Source of the DNA: a virus
Direction: 5' to 3' (one strand)
Virus record (IMG/VR): IMGVR_UViG_3300017719_000198
Coordinates: 1-24,116 of that record
Length of the DNA stretch: 24,116 nucleotides
Shown here: positions 9,690 through 23,871 of the stretch, one piece after another
Layout of the letters: each line of letters starts with the position of its first letter
Numbering within the stretch: position 1 is the stretch's first letter
Position numbers and translations under genes: made by a program
Notes under the pieces: generated by a model
Seen by the model: only the letters and a program-made list of their open reading frames with translations
What the model was told of the DNA's origin: nothing
The model's database searches: none

Positions 9690-10153
9690 GAGGCTGTTAT
9701 CGCCACATCACCATTGATAATAAAGCTTCCGAACAAAACAGTTGTGTGTGGGCCGTCTACGTTATCTGTAGCTGTATTTGGGCCAACGTACTGAAGGTCG
9801 TAAGTATAAGACCCTGGGTCTACCGTCCTCATCTCAGTGGCTGGGACGGTTATTACTACAATTCCAGTTTCAGCATTAGCTGTAAGGCTAGTATTAAAAA
9901 CAAAGTCTGCCGTATCGTTGGCTACACTTGTTCCGTGACCAACTCCAGTCGTTTCATCAGTTCCTATTACAATCGGCCTATTTCCGTCAGCGGCTTTTCT
10001 TCCGCGAACCTGCATAGTAAACTTATAGAATTCACTTACTAAAGGCAAAACCACCCCGTCAGAATCTTTAAGTGTAAGACTCATGTTAAAGGTGTCACCC
10101 CTCCTACATGTTATGTCCAGTCTAGACGACTGGTCTAGATCAACCTTGGCCAT
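9686..10153 (-). CDS. BppU-like baseplate/tail protein
   Basis: A 155-residue protein with the hallmarks of the N-terminal domain of baseplate upper proteins (BppU family). These are CRRGDTFNMSLTLKDSDG near residues 17-34, a central FTMQVRGRK, and a final GSYTYDLQYVG then LFGSFIINGDV. That family forms an Ig-like beta domain that connects receptor-binding proteins to the virion. Here it stands alone, without the helical and C-terminal parts of lactococcal BppU. It overlaps the portal gene end by 14 bases and the next gene by 4 (ATGA), so it is the first gene after the portal. The family assignment is probable. Its exact place in the virion is inferred. Confidence 0.65.
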   Translation of the reverse strand: MAKVDLDQSSRLDITCRRGDTFNMSLTLKDSDGVVLPLVSEFYKFTMQVRGRKAADGNRPIVIGTDETTGVGHGTSVANDTADFVFNTSLTANAETGIVVITVPATEMRTVDPGSYTYDLQYVGPNTATDNVDGPHTTVLFGSFIINGDVAITAS

Positions 10154-12611
10154 TTTGTATAATGTTGTTTATGATGTCTTGAGACGAATTTTCTTCTTTC
10201 GCTACTTCCGCAGCCTCAGGAAGCTCTCCTCTATCGCCTTGTCTTTGAGAAATAAGTTTGCTCTGTTCAGCCGACTGCTTTTTTACTCTTTCGTCTTTTC
10301 TGTCTTCTTTCAAGACTTCAAGTTTTTCTTTAAACTCAGCGTCGTCAGTCTTAAATCCTAAGGTCGCTTGAGCCTTAATAATTTCTATCTCCTTCCTGTG
10401 CTCATGCTTAAGCACTTCCATCTGAGATTCCAACTGAGACTTCATTTGCTCCATTTGAGCATCAATCTGAGCTTTAGCTTGCATCTCCTGCATTTTAGCC
10501 TGGCTTTGGGCTTGAGAAGCTTGAGCTTGAGCCTGGGCCTGCATTTGAGAGTTCTGCTGCGCAATCTGCTGGTTTGCAGCCATTCTCTTTTTTCTCCTCA
10601 CGACTAGAAGCCTCTCAGCTTGATTTATGTCCTTTAGCTGTCTGATAGCAATAGCATCCTCTATGTCAAGCTCTTTTTGAGCAAGGGATACCTGTATATT
10701 CTGCTCTAAATACTGCTTCTCTACCTCCTCCATCTCCTTTACCACTTGCACACCAAAGTTGTACATAGACAGGCTCTTAAAAGAGGACAGCGTCTTCATG
10801 TTTTCTTTTCCTATCGCGTTTTCGTAAGCTTTATGAAGAACCGACTCGACGGGTATAATTTGAAGGCACTTGACGATGTCAGAGCAGACCTTCTTAAACA
10901 ACACCATAGAGGAGTTGGTTATGTCATATATGGCATTATTTCCCGCAGCTATAGCCTGCTGCCTAACCCCAACCAGAGCATCGCCTTTAGGTGACGACCC
11001 ATCCATAGCCTCATTGATCCCAGTGGCATCTCTAATGAGCCTTAGGTAATGGTTATACAAAGCGATGAACTCATTTATATTCCTGATACTGTTTCCTATC
11101 TCTCGAATAGGAGGGTTTTGAAAACCTCCCTCTGGGTTTTTACTTCTGTAGTAGAACACACCAGTCTGCTCGTAAATATCGTGAAGCTCTAAAGGCTGAA
11201 GCTCTCCTCCCTTTCCTAGCTGAACGTTCTCAAGACCTTCAATGTCAATGATTATACCATCTGGCTTAGCTTTAGCGATGGCTTGCTGTATTTTAAGGTG
11301 CGTAAGCTGAAGTTGATCCGCAAAACCTATGCAGCTGTCAACCATAGACTTAGGGATCATATCCTCTATGTTTGTAGCTACAGCTGAATAAGAAAGGTTA
11401 GCACGAGAAATGTCATGCATATTTTTAGGGATATTTGTCTTCAGGCCATAGTCAAACAATTTGTCGCAACCCATTATAAACTTCCCTCCATACACTACCT
11501 CGTTTTCAAGGCACTCCATATTTCTTTTATACACAGAGCTAGATGACTGCTTGTAGCTATCCCCCTTAAAGTAAAACCCTGAGTTCCCATACCTGCTCTC
11601 CTTTTCTTCGAAGAACATCTTGTCTACGCTTTTAAACTCAAAGTCCATGATCTCAACCATGTACTCGTCATAACCAAAAGATTGTTTGTTTAACCTGCTG
11701 TCAAACTTAGTCCTATTGAAGTTTGTGGTGTCGTAGTTATACTTCTTTGAGGCCTTCTCTGCAATCTCCTTGTACTCCTCTTCCGTAAACTGAGACCCCG
11801 CTATTCTTTTTAATTCCTGGATAGGAACCATATAAGTATGACCAGCGTAAACTACATCTCCAAAATTAGGGTCTTCCGTTCTGCTATGTATAAATCTAGC
11901 GGGATCTACATAACTTGTTTTTATCCCGTAGCTAGGATCATTAGACCTTTTTACTACAGCCATTCCTAGTACAGCTATGTCATTTACACACCTCCGATAT
12001 ATAGAGTCATTAAAGTCATTCCACTTTAGTGTCATATTTGTGGCTATCTGAGCGGCCACTTCAGAAGAAGACTTTATGTTATTCCCCATAAATATTTCTG
12101 CCTCTTCAAGGGTCTCTGGAATTTCTTCCATTTCGGCAACGTCAACTCCAGTTTTTTCTTTGATTGCCTCCAGCTTCTTTTTGTTCTGGACGGCCATTTC
12201 AACCTTTTTTCTTTCTATGTCTTTTTCACTAGACGACAGAGGGTCAACTGCCTCAAGGTTAGGATATGGCTCACTAGAAAGTATCTTGTTTACTACAATT
12301 CTAACAAATTTGGGGAGAATAGGCACTGGACTAAAGTCCATGTTTAAGAAACTGCCGTCTGAGTTGCTAGGGTCAAGGCTGCTCAGTAGCTGCCTGTATA
12401 TAGAAGTATCTTGTGTCCCGTTAGCGTACTTTCTATTTTTCTCAAAGGTTCTAGACCTTTTATTTAGCGTAGAGTTTGAATTTTCAGAACTCCCCCACTG
12501 ATTTGAAATAGCTTTCGCGTATTTCAGGCCGTAACTTTTTTCTGACTTTAACTCTTTTGGAGCTAAGGGGTCAGGAAAGTTGATACTATTTTTTCCCTGA
12601 TTGCCGTGCAT
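10140..12611 (-). CDS. portal protein
   Basis: An 823-residue protein directly downstream of the terminase. Its plan is that of large portal proteins of podovirus and crAss-like type. There is a charged N-terminal region, a central alpha/beta core (about 190-290, for example RRCVNDIAVLGMAVVKRSND and SYVDPARFIHSR), and a stem/clip region around 420-560 with SYSAVATNIEDMIPKSMVDS and RDATGINEAMDGSSPKGDAL. The C-terminal region (about 650-790) is a very long Gln/Ala/Met-rich coiled coil (QMQAQAQAQASQAQSQAKMQ and on). Portals form the dodecameric DNA gateway in the capsid vertex. The gene has its own TATATTTG promoter box 7 bases upstream. The identification rests on position, size and the core pattern. 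Confidence 0.8.
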   Translation of the reverse strand: MHGNQGKNSINFPDPLAPKELKSEKSYGLKYAKAISNQWGSSENSNSTLNKRSRTFEKNRKYANGTQDTSIYRQLLSSLDPSNSDGSFLNMDFSPVPILPKFVRIVVNKILSSEPYPNLEAVDPLSSSEKDIERKKVEMAVQNKKKLEAIKEKTGVDVAEMEEIPETLEEAEIFMGNNIKSSSEVAAQIATNMTLKWNDFNDSIYRRCVNDIAVLGMAVVKRSNDPSYGIKTSYVDPARFIHSRTEDPNFGDVVYAGHTYMVPIQELKRIAGSQFTEEEYKEIAEKASKKYNYDTTNFNRTKFDSRLNKQSFGYDEYMVEIMDFEFKSVDKMFFEEKESRYGNSGFYFKGDSYKQSSSSVYKRNMECLENEVVYGGKFIMGCDKLFDYGLKTNIPKNMHDISRANLSYSAVATNIEDMIPKSMVDSCIGFADQLQLTHLKIQQAIAKAKPDGIIIDIEGLENVQLGKGGELQPLELHDIYEQTGVFYYRSKNPEGGFQNPPIREIGNSIRNINEFIALYNHYLRLIRDATGINEAMDGSSPKGDALVGVRQQAIAAGNNAIYDITNSSMVLFKKVCSDIVKCLQIIPVESVLHKAYENAIGKENMKTLSSFKSLSMYNFGVQVVKEMEEVEKQYLEQNIQVSLAQKELDIEDAIAIRQLKDINQAERLLVVRRKKRMAANQQIAQQNSQMQAQAQAQASQAQSQAKMQEMQAKAQIDAQMEQMKSQLESQMEVLKHEHRKEIEIIKAQATLGFKTDDAEFKEKLEVLKEDRKDERVKKQSAEQSKLISQRQGDRGELPEAAEVAKEENSSQDIINNIIQNGQG

Positions 12612-12618
12612 CTATCGG

Positions 12619-12626
12619 CAAATATA
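12619..12626 (-). promoter_or_regulatory. Bacteroidota-type -7 promoter box upstream of portal gene
   Basis: The minus strand reads TATATTTG in the 21-base gap between terminase and portal genes, 7 bases before the portal ATG. It matches the TAnnTTTG consensus. A transcript starting here would have almost no 5' leader. A consensus TTTG at -33 is not visible, since that position falls in the terminase C-terminus. Confidence 0.5.
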
Positions 12627-12632
12627 GTGAAA

Positions 12633-14750
12633 CTAGCGATGCCACTCTTTTATCTTAGACTTCCTGAAAAACTTCTTGTCGTTGAAATTCGAGGTCTTTT
12701 TTAATTGCTTTGATTTTTGAGCAGCAAGAAGAGCCAACCCAGAACTTATTGTAAGGTCATACTTTGTTCTGTTGGTTATTTTGTACCCTATCCAGTCCTC
12801 TAAAGTCCTGTTAAAATACATGTTCCCGAAGTCAGCTGTTTCTGGCTTTACACCTACGTGATTATGAATATATGTTTCTATCGCATGAGCATGAGCCTGA
12901 ATAACGTCCTGAGAGTTAGAGGGTATTCCTTTTGTTTTCACGTTTGATTTCGTATTAGCCGAAAGCAAGTGAGCTGGCCTATCCATTAAATATCCATCAT
13001 ATCCTCTTGTCTCAAAATACCGAACTATACCGTATTTGTTGTTTTCTACAAGTAATGGATATCCGTAGTAGAAAGAAGCCATTAAAACGTCTTCATAGAA
13101 AATGCTGGCTAAGTCTGGTCTTGAGGCGTACTCCAGAACAAACATGCTGTCTGGAAAATCACTGTTCATACTAAACTTGTTATACAAATGAAGGGCTCCT
13201 TTAGATCCCCTTCCGTCAACCGTCTCATCCAAGTCATACGAGTCTACACCCCCAACACCATACTGGTAATTTAAAGGCTTTTTCTTTCCTCTATCTTCAG
13301 TATACTTGTTTCTATGGCTGGTCGGTGGTTGCCAAGACAGCTTAAATCTCCCCCGTGGGTCGGGTGAAAATATAACCTCTTTGTCTTTCACCTTCCACAT
13401 AAAGTTTCCAGTGACTACTGGGTCAGGGTAAAGGTTGTTATTCCAATCAACCTGCTGGTATATTTTTCCAATATTGAATATACTCCCCTCTATGCTGTCT
13501 CGAAACGCCTCCTCTTCCGTAAGAGGGAATTGTCTTATGACCTCGTTAAGTTCAGATGGATCGTGGTTTAAGCTCTGTCTTTCGTTTTTTAAATACTCTA
13601 GACTGCCCTGCCCTACCATCTCCCCATCTACCCCCATAACCTGATTTCCATCAGACAGGCTATCCAAAACAGGATTGCCATACTCATCAAAAAACCCTTC
13701 AAGAGCATAAGAAGCAGGGATAAAAATACGATATAGGCCGCTTCGGGTTCTTCCGTTCGCGTTTCTTTCTCCTGGGTCTGAGTCCTCCCAAAGGTTTTTA
13801 TATTCTTCACCTCCTTTATTCATTGGGTTGACGGTGCTGCCAACCATTGCTTTTCCCACTACCCTTTTACCAACGATAAGACATGTCCTTTCAATTCTCC
13901 ATGCCTCCTTTATGTCTACTGGCTTCTCCCATTTTCCTGCCTCGTCGAGGTATAGCATGTGCAGCTTTTCTCCGTCGTAGGCATTATTGGTTGTGTTTTT
14001 CCAGTTGATGATAGTGTTGAGAGCGTCCCCCTTTTGTGACGTCTTATTCTTCTTGGTGATTCGTTTTGATGGTTCCCGAAAAGCGAGTTCCATACGTGGG
14101 TTCGTAGTGCCATCCTGAATAGGTTTAAAGAAGAATGGGTAACTCCGAAACATCGGAATTACTTTCTTCATGAATATATTCTCCTGAGCATCCTTACCAG
14201 TCTTTGACTGGATGCCCAAGAGCTTGTCTTTAACTTGCGTAGCCTCGTCAACAAGTACAGAGGCACAGATATTAGTATAGCCAGAACGCCTACACTTAGT
14301 ATATAGCTGACCGATACAACGGGAATCAGCTTCACACGCAGCCATGTGAATAAATATCTCACGCTGGAAGGCAAGGTACGAAGGAAATCCGATATCAATC
14401 TTACTCCACTGAAGGAACATATAGTGCCTCCCTGTAATGTACGTAGGCAAGCCATTGTTGTAAAACCAAACACCGTTACGCCTGCGCTCAAACTCCTTTT
14501 CGATATAAGCAGAAAACTTCTTTCGAAATTCGGAAGGCTTTTCGAACCACTCATCCATACTTCTAACCCTCGACAACTCCTGGGGCATAGGTATGCGTTT
14601 CCACATCTGCATCCCTTTTGGCTTGTCATGGAAGAGTATTTCAGATCGCTTTGGCTTTTTCGGAAGACCAATGTCAAGGCCGTGGAACTCAAGTACCTCT
14701 CCTTTTTTGCCCTCAGGGTCCAGCCAAATAGTGTCATCGGACTTGTCCAT
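12633..14750 (-). CDS. terL: terminase large subunit
   Basis: A 705-residue DNA-packaging motor protein. The ATPase half shows an Arg-rich variant Walker A at 152-160 (KCRRSGYTN) and Walker B at 263-271 (LHMLYLDEA, with D269 and E270 as metal and catalytic acids). A coupling motif VGSTVNPM lies at 303-310. The nuclease half (RNase H fold) shows the first Asp in VGGVDSYD (D503) and a second acidic site in LVENNKYG (E569). The basic C-terminus RKSKIKEWHR closes it. The enzyme pumps genomic DNA through the portal and cuts the concatemer. The start at 14750 overlaps the preceding CxC-CxC gene by 17 bases. No small terminase subunit is obvious beside it; one of the small neighbours could fill that role. 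Confidence 0.93.
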   Translation of the reverse strand: MDKSDDTIWLDPEGKKGEVLEFHGLDIGLPKKPKRSEILFHDKPKGMQMWKRIPMPQELSRVRSMDEWFEKPSEFRKKFSAYIEKEFERRRNGVWFYNNGLPTYITGRHYMFLQWSKIDIGFPSYLAFQREIFIHMAACEADSRCIGQLYTKCRRSGYTNICASVLVDEATQVKDKLLGIQSKTGKDAQENIFMKKVIPMFRSYPFFFKPIQDGTTNPRMELAFREPSKRITKKNKTSQKGDALNTIINWKNTTNNAYDGEKLHMLYLDEAGKWEKPVDIKEAWRIERTCLIVGKRVVGKAMVGSTVNPMNKGGEEYKNLWEDSDPGERNANGRTRSGLYRIFIPASYALEGFFDEYGNPVLDSLSDGNQVMGVDGEMVGQGSLEYLKNERQSLNHDPSELNEVIRQFPLTEEEAFRDSIEGSIFNIGKIYQQVDWNNNLYPDPVVTGNFMWKVKDKEVIFSPDPRGRFKLSWQPPTSHRNKYTEDRGKKKPLNYQYGVGGVDSYDLDETVDGRGSKGALHLYNKFSMNSDFPDSMFVLEYASRPDLASIFYEDVLMASFYYGYPLLVENNKYGIVRYFETRGYDGYLMDRPAHLLSANTKSNVKTKGIPSNSQDVIQAHAHAIETYIHNHVGVKPETADFGNMYFNRTLEDWIGYKITNRTKYDLTISSGLALLAAQKSKQLKKTSNFNDKKFFRKSKIKEWHR

Positions 14751-14913: not shown

Positions 14914-14927
14914 TATAAATTTAATTG

Positions 14928-15001
14928 TACCCCCACCTGGACTCGAACCAGGGACCTACAGCTTAGAAGGCTGTTGCTCTATCCAGCTGAGCTATAGAGG
15001 C
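14928..15001 (-). tRNA. tRNA-Arg (anticodon UCU)
   Basis: A complete 74-base cloverleaf. The acceptor GCCTCTA pairs with TGGGGGT (7 pairs, three of them G-U). TA sits at positions 8-9, and the D-arm is GCTC...GAGC. The anticodon stem ACAGC/GCTGT has loop CTTCTAA, giving anticodon TCT (14965-14967). The T-arm is CCTGG-TTCGAGT-CCAGG. CCA is not encoded. It starts 5 bases after the stop of the secreted-protein gene, so it is processed from the same leftward transcript. It reads AGA, the dominant Arg codon in this phage's own genes: 8 of 12 Arg codons in the 18137-18553 gene are AGA. Confidence 0.95.
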
Positions 15002-15006
15002 GTAAG

Positions 15007-16326
15007 TTAATTAACTAAAGTTACACTCCCTTTAAGTCTTATCGACACTTCCCTTTCCCCCCTAGCGTTTATAATCCAGGAATAAACTCCGTTAGGCGAG
15101 TAGTGACTTCCCTCATAAACAGACCCGTCCCACTTTTTAGACGGGTCATCCGACCTAAATACTATGTCTCCCCATCTACTGAACACAATCATTTCCCACT
15201 CTATCCAGTGATTAGGATCTTGTGTCACAGCAAAAAAGGCATCGTTTACACCGTCGTTATTGGGTGAAAAAGCATTAGGCACATATATAACTTGCTCTTG
15301 TCCTATTCCTGGGGGGTCCTCGTCACAAAGGTCCCCTGTGATACAATCGATCCATATTTCTTGGACTACGTATTCGTATATGGTGTCTTTTTGATACACA
15401 TATGTGGTGTCAAAAACGTATGTGGTGTCGTTTACATACACGTATGTGGTGTCATATATATACTCTGACTCATACAAAGTATCTGTCAAATACACCTCTA
15501 TTGTATCGGGAGGCAGCTCTACATACTGAGTCAAAGTATCTACTTGATACACAGTATCCGTAGTGTAGTACCATACGTCAATATACAGGGTGTCAGTTAA
15601 ATACGTGGTGTCGTTAAAGTAATACTCTATGGTGTCTGGGGGTAGCTCTACATAAACTGTATCTACTACATAAATCGGATCTTCCTGTTCGCAGGACACC
15701 CACCAGTTTTCAAGCTCCTGGTCAGGATACGAGCCTGTAGAGCCCCACTCAGTTCCATCCCCGTTGACTCCTGTAGTAGCCCATCCTCCATCGGCAGCAT
15801 ACCATGTATTGGAGTAGTTTATTTGCCAAACTACAATCTCAATGCACTCACCTAAGCCGACCCAATAGTCTATAAACTGTGGGGCGCAGCAGCTCTGTCC
15901 CCCCGTCAGAAAAGGGTCGTTCTCACAGTCCGTTTCATAGGGGTTGTCTAACTGCATTACCACCGTGTCTCCAGAGTACAGCGGCATATCTATATCAAAG
16001 TCACTTCCCCAGTTACTGAGCATGGAGTTTAAGCTGACCCCATAAGTCCATCCCAAGTGATTGGAATTGGGTGACATATCACAAGGCCCAGGGGGGTCCC
16101 AAGCCTCATCAACCCCTGGGACGTGCATCCCAATCATCAGCATGTTTATTGCCCCTGAAGTAGCCTGATAGCCCTGCATTCCGCAACCTTCGCTATTGAC
16201 TATCTCTAGAGTCACCTCGTAGGTGTTTAAGTTGACGTCAATAATGTCTACATCACATTGGGCAGAAGAAGCGGTACTCAACACAAGTAGACAAATGGCA
16301 AATAGTCTTTCTTTCATTCTATTCAA
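15007..16326 (-). CDS. secreted T9SS type B (CHU_C) cargo-like protein
   Basis: A 439-residue protein. Residues 1-22 are a signal peptide (MNRMKERLFAICLLVLSTAS, then SAQ cleavage region). Residues 24-215 form a Cys-containing, Trp/Gly-rich extracellular-type domain. Residues 218-320 are a Tyr/Thr/Asp repeat region (units such as DTVYVELPPDTIE and YDTTYVYVNDTTY). Residues about 347-439 are the gliding-motility-associated C-terminal domain: YVPNAFSPNNDGVNDAFF, FSRWGDIVF, KKWDG, GVYSWII and the final GSVTLVN. In Bacteroidota this domain directs export by the type IX system. The host would be expected to secrete this protein to its surface or outside. It sits between a tRNA-like element and tRNA-Arg, in the late-gene orientation. 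It could be a superinfection-exclusion factor or other lysogeny/infection moron. Its function is inferred, but the domain is clear. Confidence 0.85.
   Translation of the reverse strand: MNRMKERLFAICLLVLSTASSAQCDVDIIDVNLNTYEVTLEIVNSEGCGMQGYQATSGAINMLMIGMHVPGVDEAWDPPGPCDMSPNSNHLGWTYGVSLNSMLSNWGSDFDIDMPLYSGDTVVMQLDNPYETDCENDPFLTGGQSCCAPQFIDYWVGLGECIEIVVWQINYSNTWYAADGGWATTGVNGDGTEWGSTGSYPDQELENWWVSCEQEDPIYVVDTVYVELPPDTIEYYFNDTTYLTDTLYIDVWYYTTDTVYQVDTLTQYVELPPDTIEVYLTDTLYESEYIYDTTYVYVNDTTYVFDTTYVYQKDTIYEYVVQEIWIDCITGDLCDEDPPGIGQEQVIYVPNAFSPNNDGVNDAFFAVTQDPNHWIEWEMIVFSRWGDIVFRSDDPSKKWDGSVYEGSHYSPNGVYSWIINARGEREVSIRLKGSVTLVN
15367..15675 (-). repeat. Tyr/Thr/Asp repeat tract inside the secreted-protein gene
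   Basis: This stretch encodes about 100 residues of degenerate D-T-x-Y units at spacings of 6-11 residues. The unit VELPPDTIE followed by Y or V occurs twice (residues about 226-235 and 269-278). At DNA level, GGTGTC, GTATC and TACATA words recur. Such tracts usually make extended beta stalks lifting a domain from the surface, and are prone to copy-number change. Confidence 0.7.
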
Positions 16327-16331
16327 TTATG

Positions 16332-16408
16332 TCGGCGAGGTGGGGATTGAACCCACATGTGACCGATTACTCTTTCTACAAGATATAAGCTTGAGGAGAT
16401 ACTCACCG
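16332..16408 (-). tRNA. atypical or degenerate tRNA-like element
   Basis: The element is 77 bases on the minus strand. The acceptor CGGTGAG (16402-16408) pairs with CTCGCCG (16333-16339) over all 7 pairs with one G-U. TA follows at positions 8-9. A perfect T-arm GTGGG-TTCAATC-CCCAC (16340-16356) sits directly against the acceptor, and an A follows as discriminator. Overall length is that of a normal tRNA. However, I cannot fold a standard D-arm or an anticodon arm at the right place. The only good internal hairpin is CAAG-CTTATAT-CTTG, which would give loop triplet TAT but lies too close to the 5' side. It is either a decayed tRNA, an unusual one, or a tRNA mimic. It lies between two genes of the leftward operon. 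Confidence 0.4.
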
Positions 16409-16981: not shown

Positions 16982-17572
16982 TCAAGGGTGCTGAACCTTG
17001 TAGAGGAGTTCCGAGATCGCGACCCTGTAGTATTCTTTGTCATCAATTTTAATTCTGTAATCCCTGTTTTTCTTAAACCCTACAATATCTCCTTTTGATA
17101 CACCTATAAGTTTCAGCTCAGGGGTAGAAAAAGAAACTACCCCCTGGGTTACTACTTTCTCTTTTAAGTCTACAACCTCTATTATTTCAGAAGGTCTTTC
17201 AATATCTTCTTCAACAGGCTCAAGTAGACTCCAGCCCTTAAGGGGGCGGACAATATTGTCTTCTTTGCTTTTGTATGCAATCGCTTGGCTTGAAGCCGCG
17301 TGATTGTCATCGTAGTTGACGAGGTAGTGATTGTCTTCTTCAACAAGTGGGCTACCACCATGTATAACCACGTGATGATGAAAGTAAACCGTATCTCCAG
17401 CCTTCGCGCCAGTTTCATGCTTAAGTGGAGCAGAGACCACAATGCCCTCCGTAGTTCTTCTTTCAAATTCATTAAACTTAGTCTCTATAAAAAGTTCTAG
17501 CCCACTTTCCGTTTTAATGGTGTCCTGAAGCTTATTTTCTATCTCTACAACAAAGTCTGTAAGTGACTGCAT
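16982..17572 (-). CDS. tandem GroES-fold (Cpn10-like) co-chaperonin
   Basis: A 196-residue protein with two successive Cpn10-type halves. Half 1 (about 5-108) has FVVEIENKLQ, a possible mobile loop DTIKTESGLEL, then TEGIVVSAP, GAKAGDTVYFHHHVV and the end KEDNIV. Half 2 (about 109-195) has RPLKGWSLLEPVEEDIERPS, QGVVSFST, GVSKGDIVGFKKNRDYRIKI and DDKEYYRVAISELL. That second stretch follows the GroES C-terminal pattern V-K-x-G-D-x-V-x-F ... I-D-x-E-x-x-x-V-x-E-x-D-I-L closely. GroES caps GroEL; phage versions such as gp31 replace it to fold large capsid proteins. A double-length form resembles plastid Cpn20 in plan. It starts 3 bases after the preceding gene. The fold assignment is by pattern; partner chaperonin and substrate are inferred. 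Confidence 0.75.
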   Translation of the reverse strand: MQSLTDFVVEIENKLQDTIKTESGLELFIETKFNEFERRTTEGIVVSAPLKHETGAKAGDTVYFHHHVVIHGGSPLVEEDNHYLVNYDDNHAASSQAIAYKSKEDNIVRPLKGWSLLEPVEEDIERPSEIIEVVDLKEKVVTQGVVSFSTPELKLIGVSKGDIVGFKKNRDYRIKIDDKEYYRVAISELLYKVQHP

Positions 17573-18136: not shown

Positions 18137-18553
18137 ATGCCAAGATCTACAGTTAGCAAAAAGAAGATGTTTAGGGAGTTTTCTGTGCTAAAAGACAAGT
18201 ATATAAGCAAAAACCACCTTAAAAACCTTCATTCGTCAAGAAGAGACTTCTGCGACCACAATCAAATACTCTGGAGCCACCTAGAATTTCTTCTGTGGGG
18301 ATACGACCTAGAGTTTTTTACCATAGACTACGCCGCGTCAGAGTACGGAATGAATAGAAGCAACATGGCCAACAGAGTGATATACCCTCTAGCTCAGCAA
18401 GACCTTATTTACAAGCACTTTGAAAGGCTCACCCCTTCTAAAAACATGGATGACCACTTATTTAGAGAGGAAACTAAGTATAACTATAGAGTGCGGTACG
18501 GACTGTCTCAGAAAGCTAGACTTATGGTGCAACGGTTTTACCAAACCCTATAG
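18137..18553 (+). CDS. winged-helix (MarR-like) DNA-binding regulator
   Basis: A 138-residue protein with a basic N-terminus (MPRSTVSKKKMFREF). Residues about 61-93 read as a helix-turn-helix: FTIDYAASEYGMNRSNMANR, then VIYPLAQQDLIYK. A wing (about 94-122) and a final helix GLSQKARLMVQRFYQTL follow the MarR/PadR layout. It is likely a transcription regulator of the divergent leftward operon, whose first ATG is 19 bases away, or of its own gene. It is one of the few plus-strand genes in the main part of the window. Its 3' end overlaps the endolysin 3' end by 16 bases (convergent), so the two transcripts could interfere. Eight of its twelve Arg codons are AGA, matching the encoded tRNA. The target operator is unknown. 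Confidence 0.65.
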   Translation: MPRSTVSKKKMFREFSVLKDKYISKNHLKNLHSSRRDFCDHNQILWSHLEFLLWGYDLEFFTIDYAASEYGMNRSNMANRVIYPLAQQDLIYKHFERLTPSKNMDDHLFREETKYNYRVRYGLSQKARLMVQRFYQTL

Positions 18554-19005
18554 GTTGTTCCTGGGTACTTGACGTCCTTGTACGCCTTTAAGACTCGACC
18601 TCTGTTTTCGGATGGAGAGTTGTATGAGACATGAACCCAGTCGGGATTGGTGTCATCACCAAACTCCCATATGAGCTGATCGAAATCCAAGCACTCTTTG
18701 ATATAGAAGAATATGTCTGCATTACTTATTTTCCCAAATACATCAGCATCCAAATCCAAAGCGCGACCTTGACAATGCTGAGAGGTAGCGCTGCCCCCAA
18801 TCGAACTGTTGAGCTTTGGGGATCTGTACCCTGACGACACGTATATCGGGACTTCAAAGTGATCTCGGAGAGGTTGAAAGACATGTCCTGCTACTAGCTT
18901 GAGGTTAGTTATCTGAGGGTCGTCAGGCGCGTTTTTTAGTCCTAGGCGCTTTGCCGTCGTGCTTCTTACCGCCTCTCTTAGACTCAAATTTTTGGACAAT
19001 TTCAT
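18538..19005 (-). CDS. endolysin, peptidase M15-type (D-Ala-D-Ala carboxypeptidase-like)
   Basis: A 155-residue protein of the M15_3 type. The start MKLSKNLSLREAVRSTTAKR fits the family's usual beginning. Core motifs are YVSSGYRSPKLNSSIGG (55-71), then SQHCQGRALDLDAD (75-88) with zinc ligands H77 and D84. Further on come QLIWEFGDD (110-118), with a likely catalytic Glu (E114), and DWVHVSYN (122-129) with the third ligand H125. The length is that of a stand-alone catalytic domain, with no wall-binding part. It cuts peptide bonds in the peptidoglycan stem and serves lysis. No signal peptide is visible, so a holin is expected; the small membrane protein at 21107-21265 is a candidate. Confidence 0.88.
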   Translation of the reverse strand: MKLSKNLSLREAVRSTTAKRLGLKNAPDDPQITNLKLVAGHVFQPLRDHFEVPIYVSSGYRSPKLNSSIGGSATSQHCQGRALDLDADVFGKISNADIFFYIKECLDFDQLIWEFGDDTNPDWVHVSYNSPSENRGRVLKAYKDVKYPGTTYRVW

Positions 19006-19149: not shown

Positions 19150-19482
19150 ATGAAGCACATCATCACCACCCTATTATTAGCAGCCACGACTGCAATCAGC
19201 GCACAGACCATCTTTTTTCAACCCTCAGACTATAGCTTACCTGCAGCTACTCACGAATGGAGTGTAACGGTAGTCTCTAACCTAGGGGTAGCTCAAAACA
19301 TGTACGAGGGGATGGTTCAGTCAGAGACATTGATCTTAACTGACCTCGACACTAATTTCAAGGAGTACATCTTTACCCACTACATCGACGGGCAGTTAGA
19401 AGAACAGTTTGTGTACGACTGCCAAGTCCAGCAGGTGCACCCAGAAGTAACTACGATTACAGTAGCTACGGTAGTAAAGTAA
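19150..19482 (+). CDS. small secreted or periplasmic protein
   Basis: A 110-residue protein with a clear signal peptide: MKHIITTLLLAATTAISAQ, cleavage expected after ISA. The mature part (about 91 residues) is Thr/Val/Gln-rich and beta-type, for example HEWSVTVVSNLGVAQNMYEG and TDLDTNFKEYIFTHYIDG. It has one Cys, no lipobox and no further membrane segment. It stands alone on the plus strand between the endolysin and the leftward structural operon, and is closed by the strong hairpin at 19503-19531. No Shine-Dalgarno is visible upstream, as usual in Bacteroidota. It looks like a moron that changes the host envelope, but no family was recognised. Confidence 0.7.
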   Translation: MKHIITTLLLAATTAISAQTIFFQPSDYSLPAATHEWSVTVVSNLGVAQNMYEGMVQSETLILTDLDTNFKEYIFTHYIDGQLEEQFVYDCQVQQVHPEVTTITVATVVK

Positions 19483-23815: not shown

Positions 23816-23871
23816 GACATCGACACAGACACACATGGTGCAAGGAGGGGTTCGACTCCCCTCTGTGTCTC
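23814..23871 (+). ncRNA. tRNA-like minihelix (T-arm plus acceptor, no D or anticodon arm)
   Basis: A perfect T-arm AGGGG-TTCGACT-CCCCT (23846-23862) is followed directly by CTGTGTC (23863-23869). That pairs perfectly with GACACAG at 23822-23828 as a 7-bp acceptor. An alternative outer stem is GAGACAT (23814-23820) with GTGTCTC (23865-23871), 7 pairs with one G-U. Only 17-24 bases separate the 5' strand from the T-arm, too few for D and anticodon arms. It lies between two genes, and its 5' end overlaps the TGA of the first. The element could be a tRNA-like structure used for RNA processing or stability, a relic from tRNA capture, or a recombination target. Confidence 0.5.
23816..23834 (+). repeat. 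19-base direct repeat, copy 2
   Basis: GACATCGACACAGACACAC, identical to 23618-23636. This copy lies in the intergenic spacer and supplies the 5' strand of the tRNA-like minihelix. Confidence 0.8.

Follow-up and report, generated by a model that had tools for sequence, protein, structure and literature searches.

A phage gene encoding a putative T9SS type B cargo with an almost exclusively viral N-domain

Introduction

Can a tailed phage use the type IX secretion system (T9SS) of its host to place a protein of its own on the cell surface, and what would such a protein do there? This question is raised by a gene in the window analysed here, which is the whole stretch of 24,116 nucleotides in the IMG/VR record IMGVR_UViG_3300017719_000198. 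An earlier note, made from the letters alone, had read the gene as a phage-borne T9SS type B cargo and knew of no well-described case linking phage infection with this system. Such cases have been published: Cryophage encodes a T9SS type A cargo, for which a function in superinfection or inter-strain competition was suggested (PMC7468147), and crAss-like phages were reported to encode proteins with T9SS sorting domains (PMC6949934). The C-terminal domains (CTDs) of type B cargos bind PorP-like proteins on the cell surface (PMC9143113). Five conserved motifs (A-E) in these domains are needed for secretion, which also depends on shuttles of the PorP/SprF type; the pairing of CTD and shuttle is mostly specific, with a degree of crosstalk (PMC12618676).

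Results

Phage origin and gene neighbourhood

The window belongs to the genome of a marine tailed phage, and the cargo gene within it is genuinely a phage gene. PHROG scores of 710 and 651 bits were obtained for the terminase and the portal (Table 1). A longer contig of 66,366 bp, G001, contains the window as its right part, with 99.98% identity over 19 kb. As the ends of G001 hold 21-bp terminal repeats, a complete, circularly assembled genome is suggested. A search with the whole protein returned 15 contigs, G001 among them, and the neighbourhood is kept wherever the contig is long enough. Terminase, portal and endolysin genes surround the cargo gene, and this locus recurs in independent contigs. 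A misassembly that joined bacterial DNA to a phage contig, put forward in the earlier note as a possible refutation, is excluded by the match to G001 and by the presence of the same locus in many metagenome contigs; since the HMM scores are strong as well, the probability that misassembly or a chance CHU_C match explains the gene is close to nil.

Bacteroidota are the hosts of cultured phages that have related terminases. Terminases of the cultured Flavobacterium elemo phage and of the Manatee Spring podovirus are 41-47% identical to that of the window, and in both the GroES-like gene adjoins the terminase or is separated from it by one small gene, with no cargo gene in between. For this reason, the cargo gene together with its tRNAs resembles an island inserted in the present lineage.

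Two further elements were observed in the window. A small protein with a signal peptide is encoded at 19150-19482(+), on the strand opposite to its neighbours; it shows ~87% DNA identity in L013/L014 and no family match of note. A 48-nt element at 23822-23869(+), consisting of a 7-bp acceptor-like stem and a T arm only, is conserved in two relatives and has a weak mascRNA-like Rfam match (E=0.2).

Table 1. Features of the cargo locus and PorP/SprF-family genes of giant-phage contigs. Positions refer to the window unless a contig is named.
Feature	Position	Strand	Basis or remark
Portal protein, phrog_6547	10140..12611	(-)	PHROG
Terminase large subunit, phrog_6681	12633..14750	(-)	PHROG
tRNA-Arg (TCT)	14927..15001	(-)	directly downstream of cargo gene
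Cargo CDS, putative T9SS type B	15007..16317	(-)	436 aa, ATG at 16317
CHU_C / T9SS type B sorting domain	15022..15285	(-)	Pfam and TIGR04131 profiles
DT/Y-rich extended stalk	15343..15675	(-)	length differs among relatives
N-domain, ~195 aa, to ~residue 214, Cys/Trp-rich	15676..16260	(-)	alignment of relatives
Sec signal peptide, MKERLFAICLLVLSTASSA-Q	16261..16317	(-)	judged by inspection
tRNA-like element	16332..16408	(-)	just upstream of cargo start codon, ~15 nt
GroES-like co-chaperonin	16982..17572	(-)	context gene
M15 peptidase endolysin	18538..19005	(-)	Pfam, PHROG; upstream of cargo gene
PorP/SprF-family gene	L047:16099-17091	(-)	TIGR03519
PorP/SprF-family gene	L054:17089-18078	(-)	TIGR03519

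Anatomy of the cargo protein

The open reading frame at 15007-16326(-) is uninterrupted over 439 codons, while its start is better placed at the likelier ATG, 9 bases inside the TTG given in the list of reading frames. The signal peptide, the Tyr/Thr/Asp-rich stalk and the CHU_C domain of the earlier description are all present. The signal peptide, judged by eye, is kept across relatives with a conserved QC(D) junction (MKERLFAICLLVLSTASSA-QCD), which is not a lipobox, as Q precedes the Cys. An HMM search had been proposed as a check of the sorting domain. The Pfam CHU_C profile matches near the C-terminus at 54.1 bits (E=1.7e-14), twice its curated cut-off of 27, while NCBIfam TIGR04131 reaches 34.3 bits (E=1.9e-8), 0.7 bit short of the cut-off of 35. 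The lack of a significant CHU_C match, the other refutation named in the earlier note, is thereby set aside.

The motifs QCD, NHPGW, GDT, VIWQINYS, DGGWA, NGDGT and YPD mark the N-domain in the alignment of relatives. It matched no Pfam family, no PDB sequence and no PDB fold at E <= 0.001. Structure prediction, also proposed as a check, added little, since the models are weak: the full-length model (pLDDT 38) is too poor for use and that of the N-domain has a pLDDT of 65. Lamin-tail and C2 domains were the top PDB fold matches to the N-domain, at a weak level that carries no meaning. In BFVD there was one good match, the unnamed viral protein A0A516LPX6 (28% identity; TM 0.71 by query), which represents a relative rather than an explanation. 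No known defence or superinfection family was matched by the cargo in PADLOC or PHROG, and promoter and terminator scans performed no better than on shuffled sequence.

The flanking tRNA and tRNA-like element

The position of the gene between tRNA-Arg and a tRNA-like element, as first described, was confirmed. tRNA-Arg adjoins the cargo gene in many relatives too, and this is the usual arrangement among the 15 contigs found with the whole protein. The tRNA-like element is real: the Rfam tRNA model gives it 26.3 bits against a cut-off of 29 (E=7e-4, 131 bases searched). An acceptor stem of 7 bp and a T arm are present, a normal D arm is not, and the element is near-identical in several relatives although its flanks differ. 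It resembles tRNA-Ile(TAT).

Selection and exchange of domains

The cargo gene is under strong purifying selection, with dN/dS of ~0.02-0.13 in the N-domain, the stalk and the CTD where dS could be estimated, dS being saturated at larger distances. Relatives on other viral contigs retain the domain layout of the cargo, and this shared architecture together with the low dN/dS argues against a chance reading frame. At the same time, the N-domain and CHU_C have been swapped independently of each other. In L008, an N-domain ~85% identical to the present one is followed by a CHU_C domain of 42% identity, while L012/L013/L031 combine CHU_C domains of 73-83% identity with N-domains of 34-41% identity, in phages with terminases ~84-87% identical. 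The replacement of one CHU_C by another implies that what is kept is the nature of a T9SS type B cargo rather than any one sequence.

Distribution of the family in viral and cellular genomes

A survey of phage genomes had also been proposed. With the CHU_C profile, 48 loci were found in IMG/VR, near-duplicates included, in at least three genomic settings, of which the present lineage is one. In another, the terminase is ~21% identical and falls in the same PHROG, a holin (phrog_3427) and an SH3-like protein are encoded close to the cargo gene, and a type A T9SS protein is present as well. In the third (L038/L042), the cargo gene starts 2-3 bases after the gene of a giant protein of ~2,980 aa, which in L042 is related to virion proteins. 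Cultured phages gave a different outcome in that none with the cargo gene was found among 50,697 phage records, where only three unannotated metagenomic records were matched, via the CHU_C end; the gene is therefore not generally needed by such phages. LR745206.1 and LR756502.1, unannotated metagenomic huge phages of 635-642 kb, show several CHU_C-like matches per record. Phage proteins of ~710 aa with a type A sorting domain (TIGR04183 above cut-off) were seen in L034, at 11979-14102(-), and in G014, G015, G017, G018 and G035, all of which carry a type B cargo as well.

Searched alone, the N-domain has at least 117 viral relatives in IMG/VR and one match in 84,980 cellular genomes, on a MAG contig whose other genes are phage-like; short peptide patterns, which differed slightly between the two collections, served for these scans, so that the contrast between viruses and cells is strong and not exhaustive. 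All 30 of the scanned proteins that were found through their N-domain alone end in CHU_C (TIGR04131, E <= 0.001). Taken together, the viral-to-cellular contrast and this constant ending mark the N-domain as specific to viruses and as partnered with the type B signal. In larger relatives, GCTD..NYNP..DDGSC and CARDB-like repeats are found in addition. The MAG contig WLWP01000006.1 (L064), labelled Pseudomonadales, is phage-like and holds GroEL/GroES and an N-domain/CHU_C protein; its placement in a bacterium outside the T9SS phyla is probably a binning error.

Shuttle genes in giant phages

Neither a PorP/SprF gene on the 66-kb contig G001 nor a type A sorting signal in this phage was found. 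A cognate shuttle gene is frequent near type B cargos but does not define them, as the three orphan cargos of F. johnsoniae show (PMC12618676), and without a PorP/SprF gene of its own this phage would depend on a compatible host shuttle for export. Five giant-phage contigs of 55-270 kb (G021, G023, G026, G027 and G028) encode a CHU_C cargo, a PorP/SprF protein and a T4-type portal, and gp23 was additionally matched in G021, G027 and G028; a wider search for phage PorP/SprF led only to the same five. In the two scanned, at the loci L047 and L054, TIGR03519 is matched at ~180 bits (cut-off 90.55). The cargos of the giant phages exceed 1,000 aa, and their genes lie ~6 kb from the PorP/SprF gene, not adjacent in one operon. 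By this proximity, the giant phages look like they encode putative cargo-plus-shuttle pairs.

Discussion

We consider it probable, as the best explanation overall, that the gene product is a T9SS type B cargo made by the phage, exported by the host and displayed on its surface. For export through the host T9SS as such, our confidence is higher, and it can be called likely from the sequence. That the phage uses the host system, as the earlier note proposed, stands as the most economical reading of a real type B signal on a stable phage gene. Based on the anatomy of the protein and the cited shuttle work, the path would lead through host Sec and T9SS with the help of a host shuttle. Following established T9SS biology, Sec would move the cargo into the periplasm, the translocon, itself assumed to be present, would recognise the CHU_C domain, and a PorP/SprF-type shuttle would take the protein and retain it on the cell surface, where the stalk would hold the N-domain outward. 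Displayed in this way late in infection, the N-domain could alter the surface of the infected cell so that competing or progeny phages fail to adsorb. Such superinfection exclusion is the leading guess for its role and is held tentatively. A phage-phage or phage-host role at the surface fits the late-gene surroundings, the exchangeability and the viral exclusivity of the N-domain; since this domain has no known homologue or fold, any purpose given to the cargo is a guess, the receptor blocking, altered gliding and surface modification of the earlier note included.

Other roles at the surface were also weighed. The protein could be a surface adhesin or another binding protein which, rather than excluding phages, alters the attachment of the infected cell to particles, other cells or released virions. 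Its stalked, adhesin-like layout, the adhesins among host type B cargos (PMC12618676) and the GCTD..NYNP..DDGSC and CARDB-like repeats of the larger relatives speak for this reading, which we regard as unlikely, as the N-domain matches no known binding domain and its almost exclusively viral occurrence argues for a phage-specific task. Somewhat less likely again is that the abundant, shuttle-less cargo acts by its CHU_C domain, occupying PorP/SprF or the translocon and displacing type B adhesins such as SprB, with removal of phage receptors or a stop of gliding as the outcome. The cargo of this genome is indeed an orphan, type B cargos have a restricted number of shuttles to rely on, between which some crosstalk occurs (PMC12618676), and the receptors of Flavobacterium phages are presumed to belong to the gliding machinery (PMC7345892). 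However, competition for shuttles leaves unexplained a large N-domain that is under purifying selection and swapped as a module, and giant phages that bring their own shuttle would create no competition.

A late accessory of lysis, such as a partner of the M15 endolysin in the outer membrane, would explain the endolysin close by, the holin and SH3-like protein near the gene in the second phage group, and the N-terminally anchored proteins with similar DT-rich stretches that take the same region in related phages. Nevertheless, a cleavable signal peptide and CHU_C direct the product outward and not across the envelope like a spanin, and the neighbourhood varies, the gene following a giant virion-related protein in L038/L042, which makes a part in lysis improbable. 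N-terminally anchored, DT/Y-rich phage proteins near an M15 endolysin, possibly spanin-like, were observed at L025:10156-10701(+) and L026:7389-8012(+). The adjoining structural genes could also point to a virion protein that, when the phage adsorbs, docks by a CHU_C-like fold on PorP/SprF or on other T9SS proteins of the host outer membrane. This we hold to be very improbable, because a Sec signal peptide would take the product out of the cytoplasm, where virions assemble, and because the gene lies outside the tail-gene block in this phage.

Surface display of a phage-made type B cargo, the reading preferred here, can be compared with known systems. Like SprB of Flavobacterium johnsoniae, a host type B cargo with the shuttle SprF, the protein joins a signal peptide, a long exported region and a C-terminal CHU_C domain; unlike such host cargos, it is encoded by a phage that has no cognate PorP/SprF in its genome, and its N-domain is almost only viral. 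Cryophage, a Bacteroidetes phage of glacier ice, shares with it a cargo that is presumed to use the host T9SS and is variable between related phages (PMC7468147). There, a type A domain is found on enzymes or a PA14 protein, whereas here a type B domain and a virus-specific N-domain occur in podovirus-like and giant phages. In crAss-like phages, the genes with T9SS sorting domains also lie near head genes (PMC6949934), but these are gut phages with BACON repeats, and no such N-domain or shuttle was described in them. The host PorP/SprF shuttles (PMC9143113, PMC12618676) have a family member in the giant-phage relatives, on the contig of the CHU_C cargo. As far as the open-access literature searched shows, the virus-specific type B family and the putative cargo-plus-shuttle pairs of phages are new, with no prior description there of phage PorP/SprF genes sharing a contig with such a cargo.

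In a broader frame, several lineages of Bacteroidota phages may possess a virus-specific family for surface display, with exchangeable N-domains, sorting signals that are likewise exchangeable and matched to host shuttles and, in the giants, a PorP/SprF protein of their own; for this wider proposal, in which re-coating through T9SS is routine, we see the chances as evenly balanced. The N-domain itself is new, almost confined to viruses and without a known relative. Since type B cargos need specific shuttles, the sorting signal may tie a phage to hosts that have the right one. The gene would offer a concrete and testable route by which phages of a phylum that ranks among the most abundant in the sea and the gut could control the exterior of the infected cell via host export and, if the wider proposal is true, phages would routinely re-coat infected cells through T9SS.
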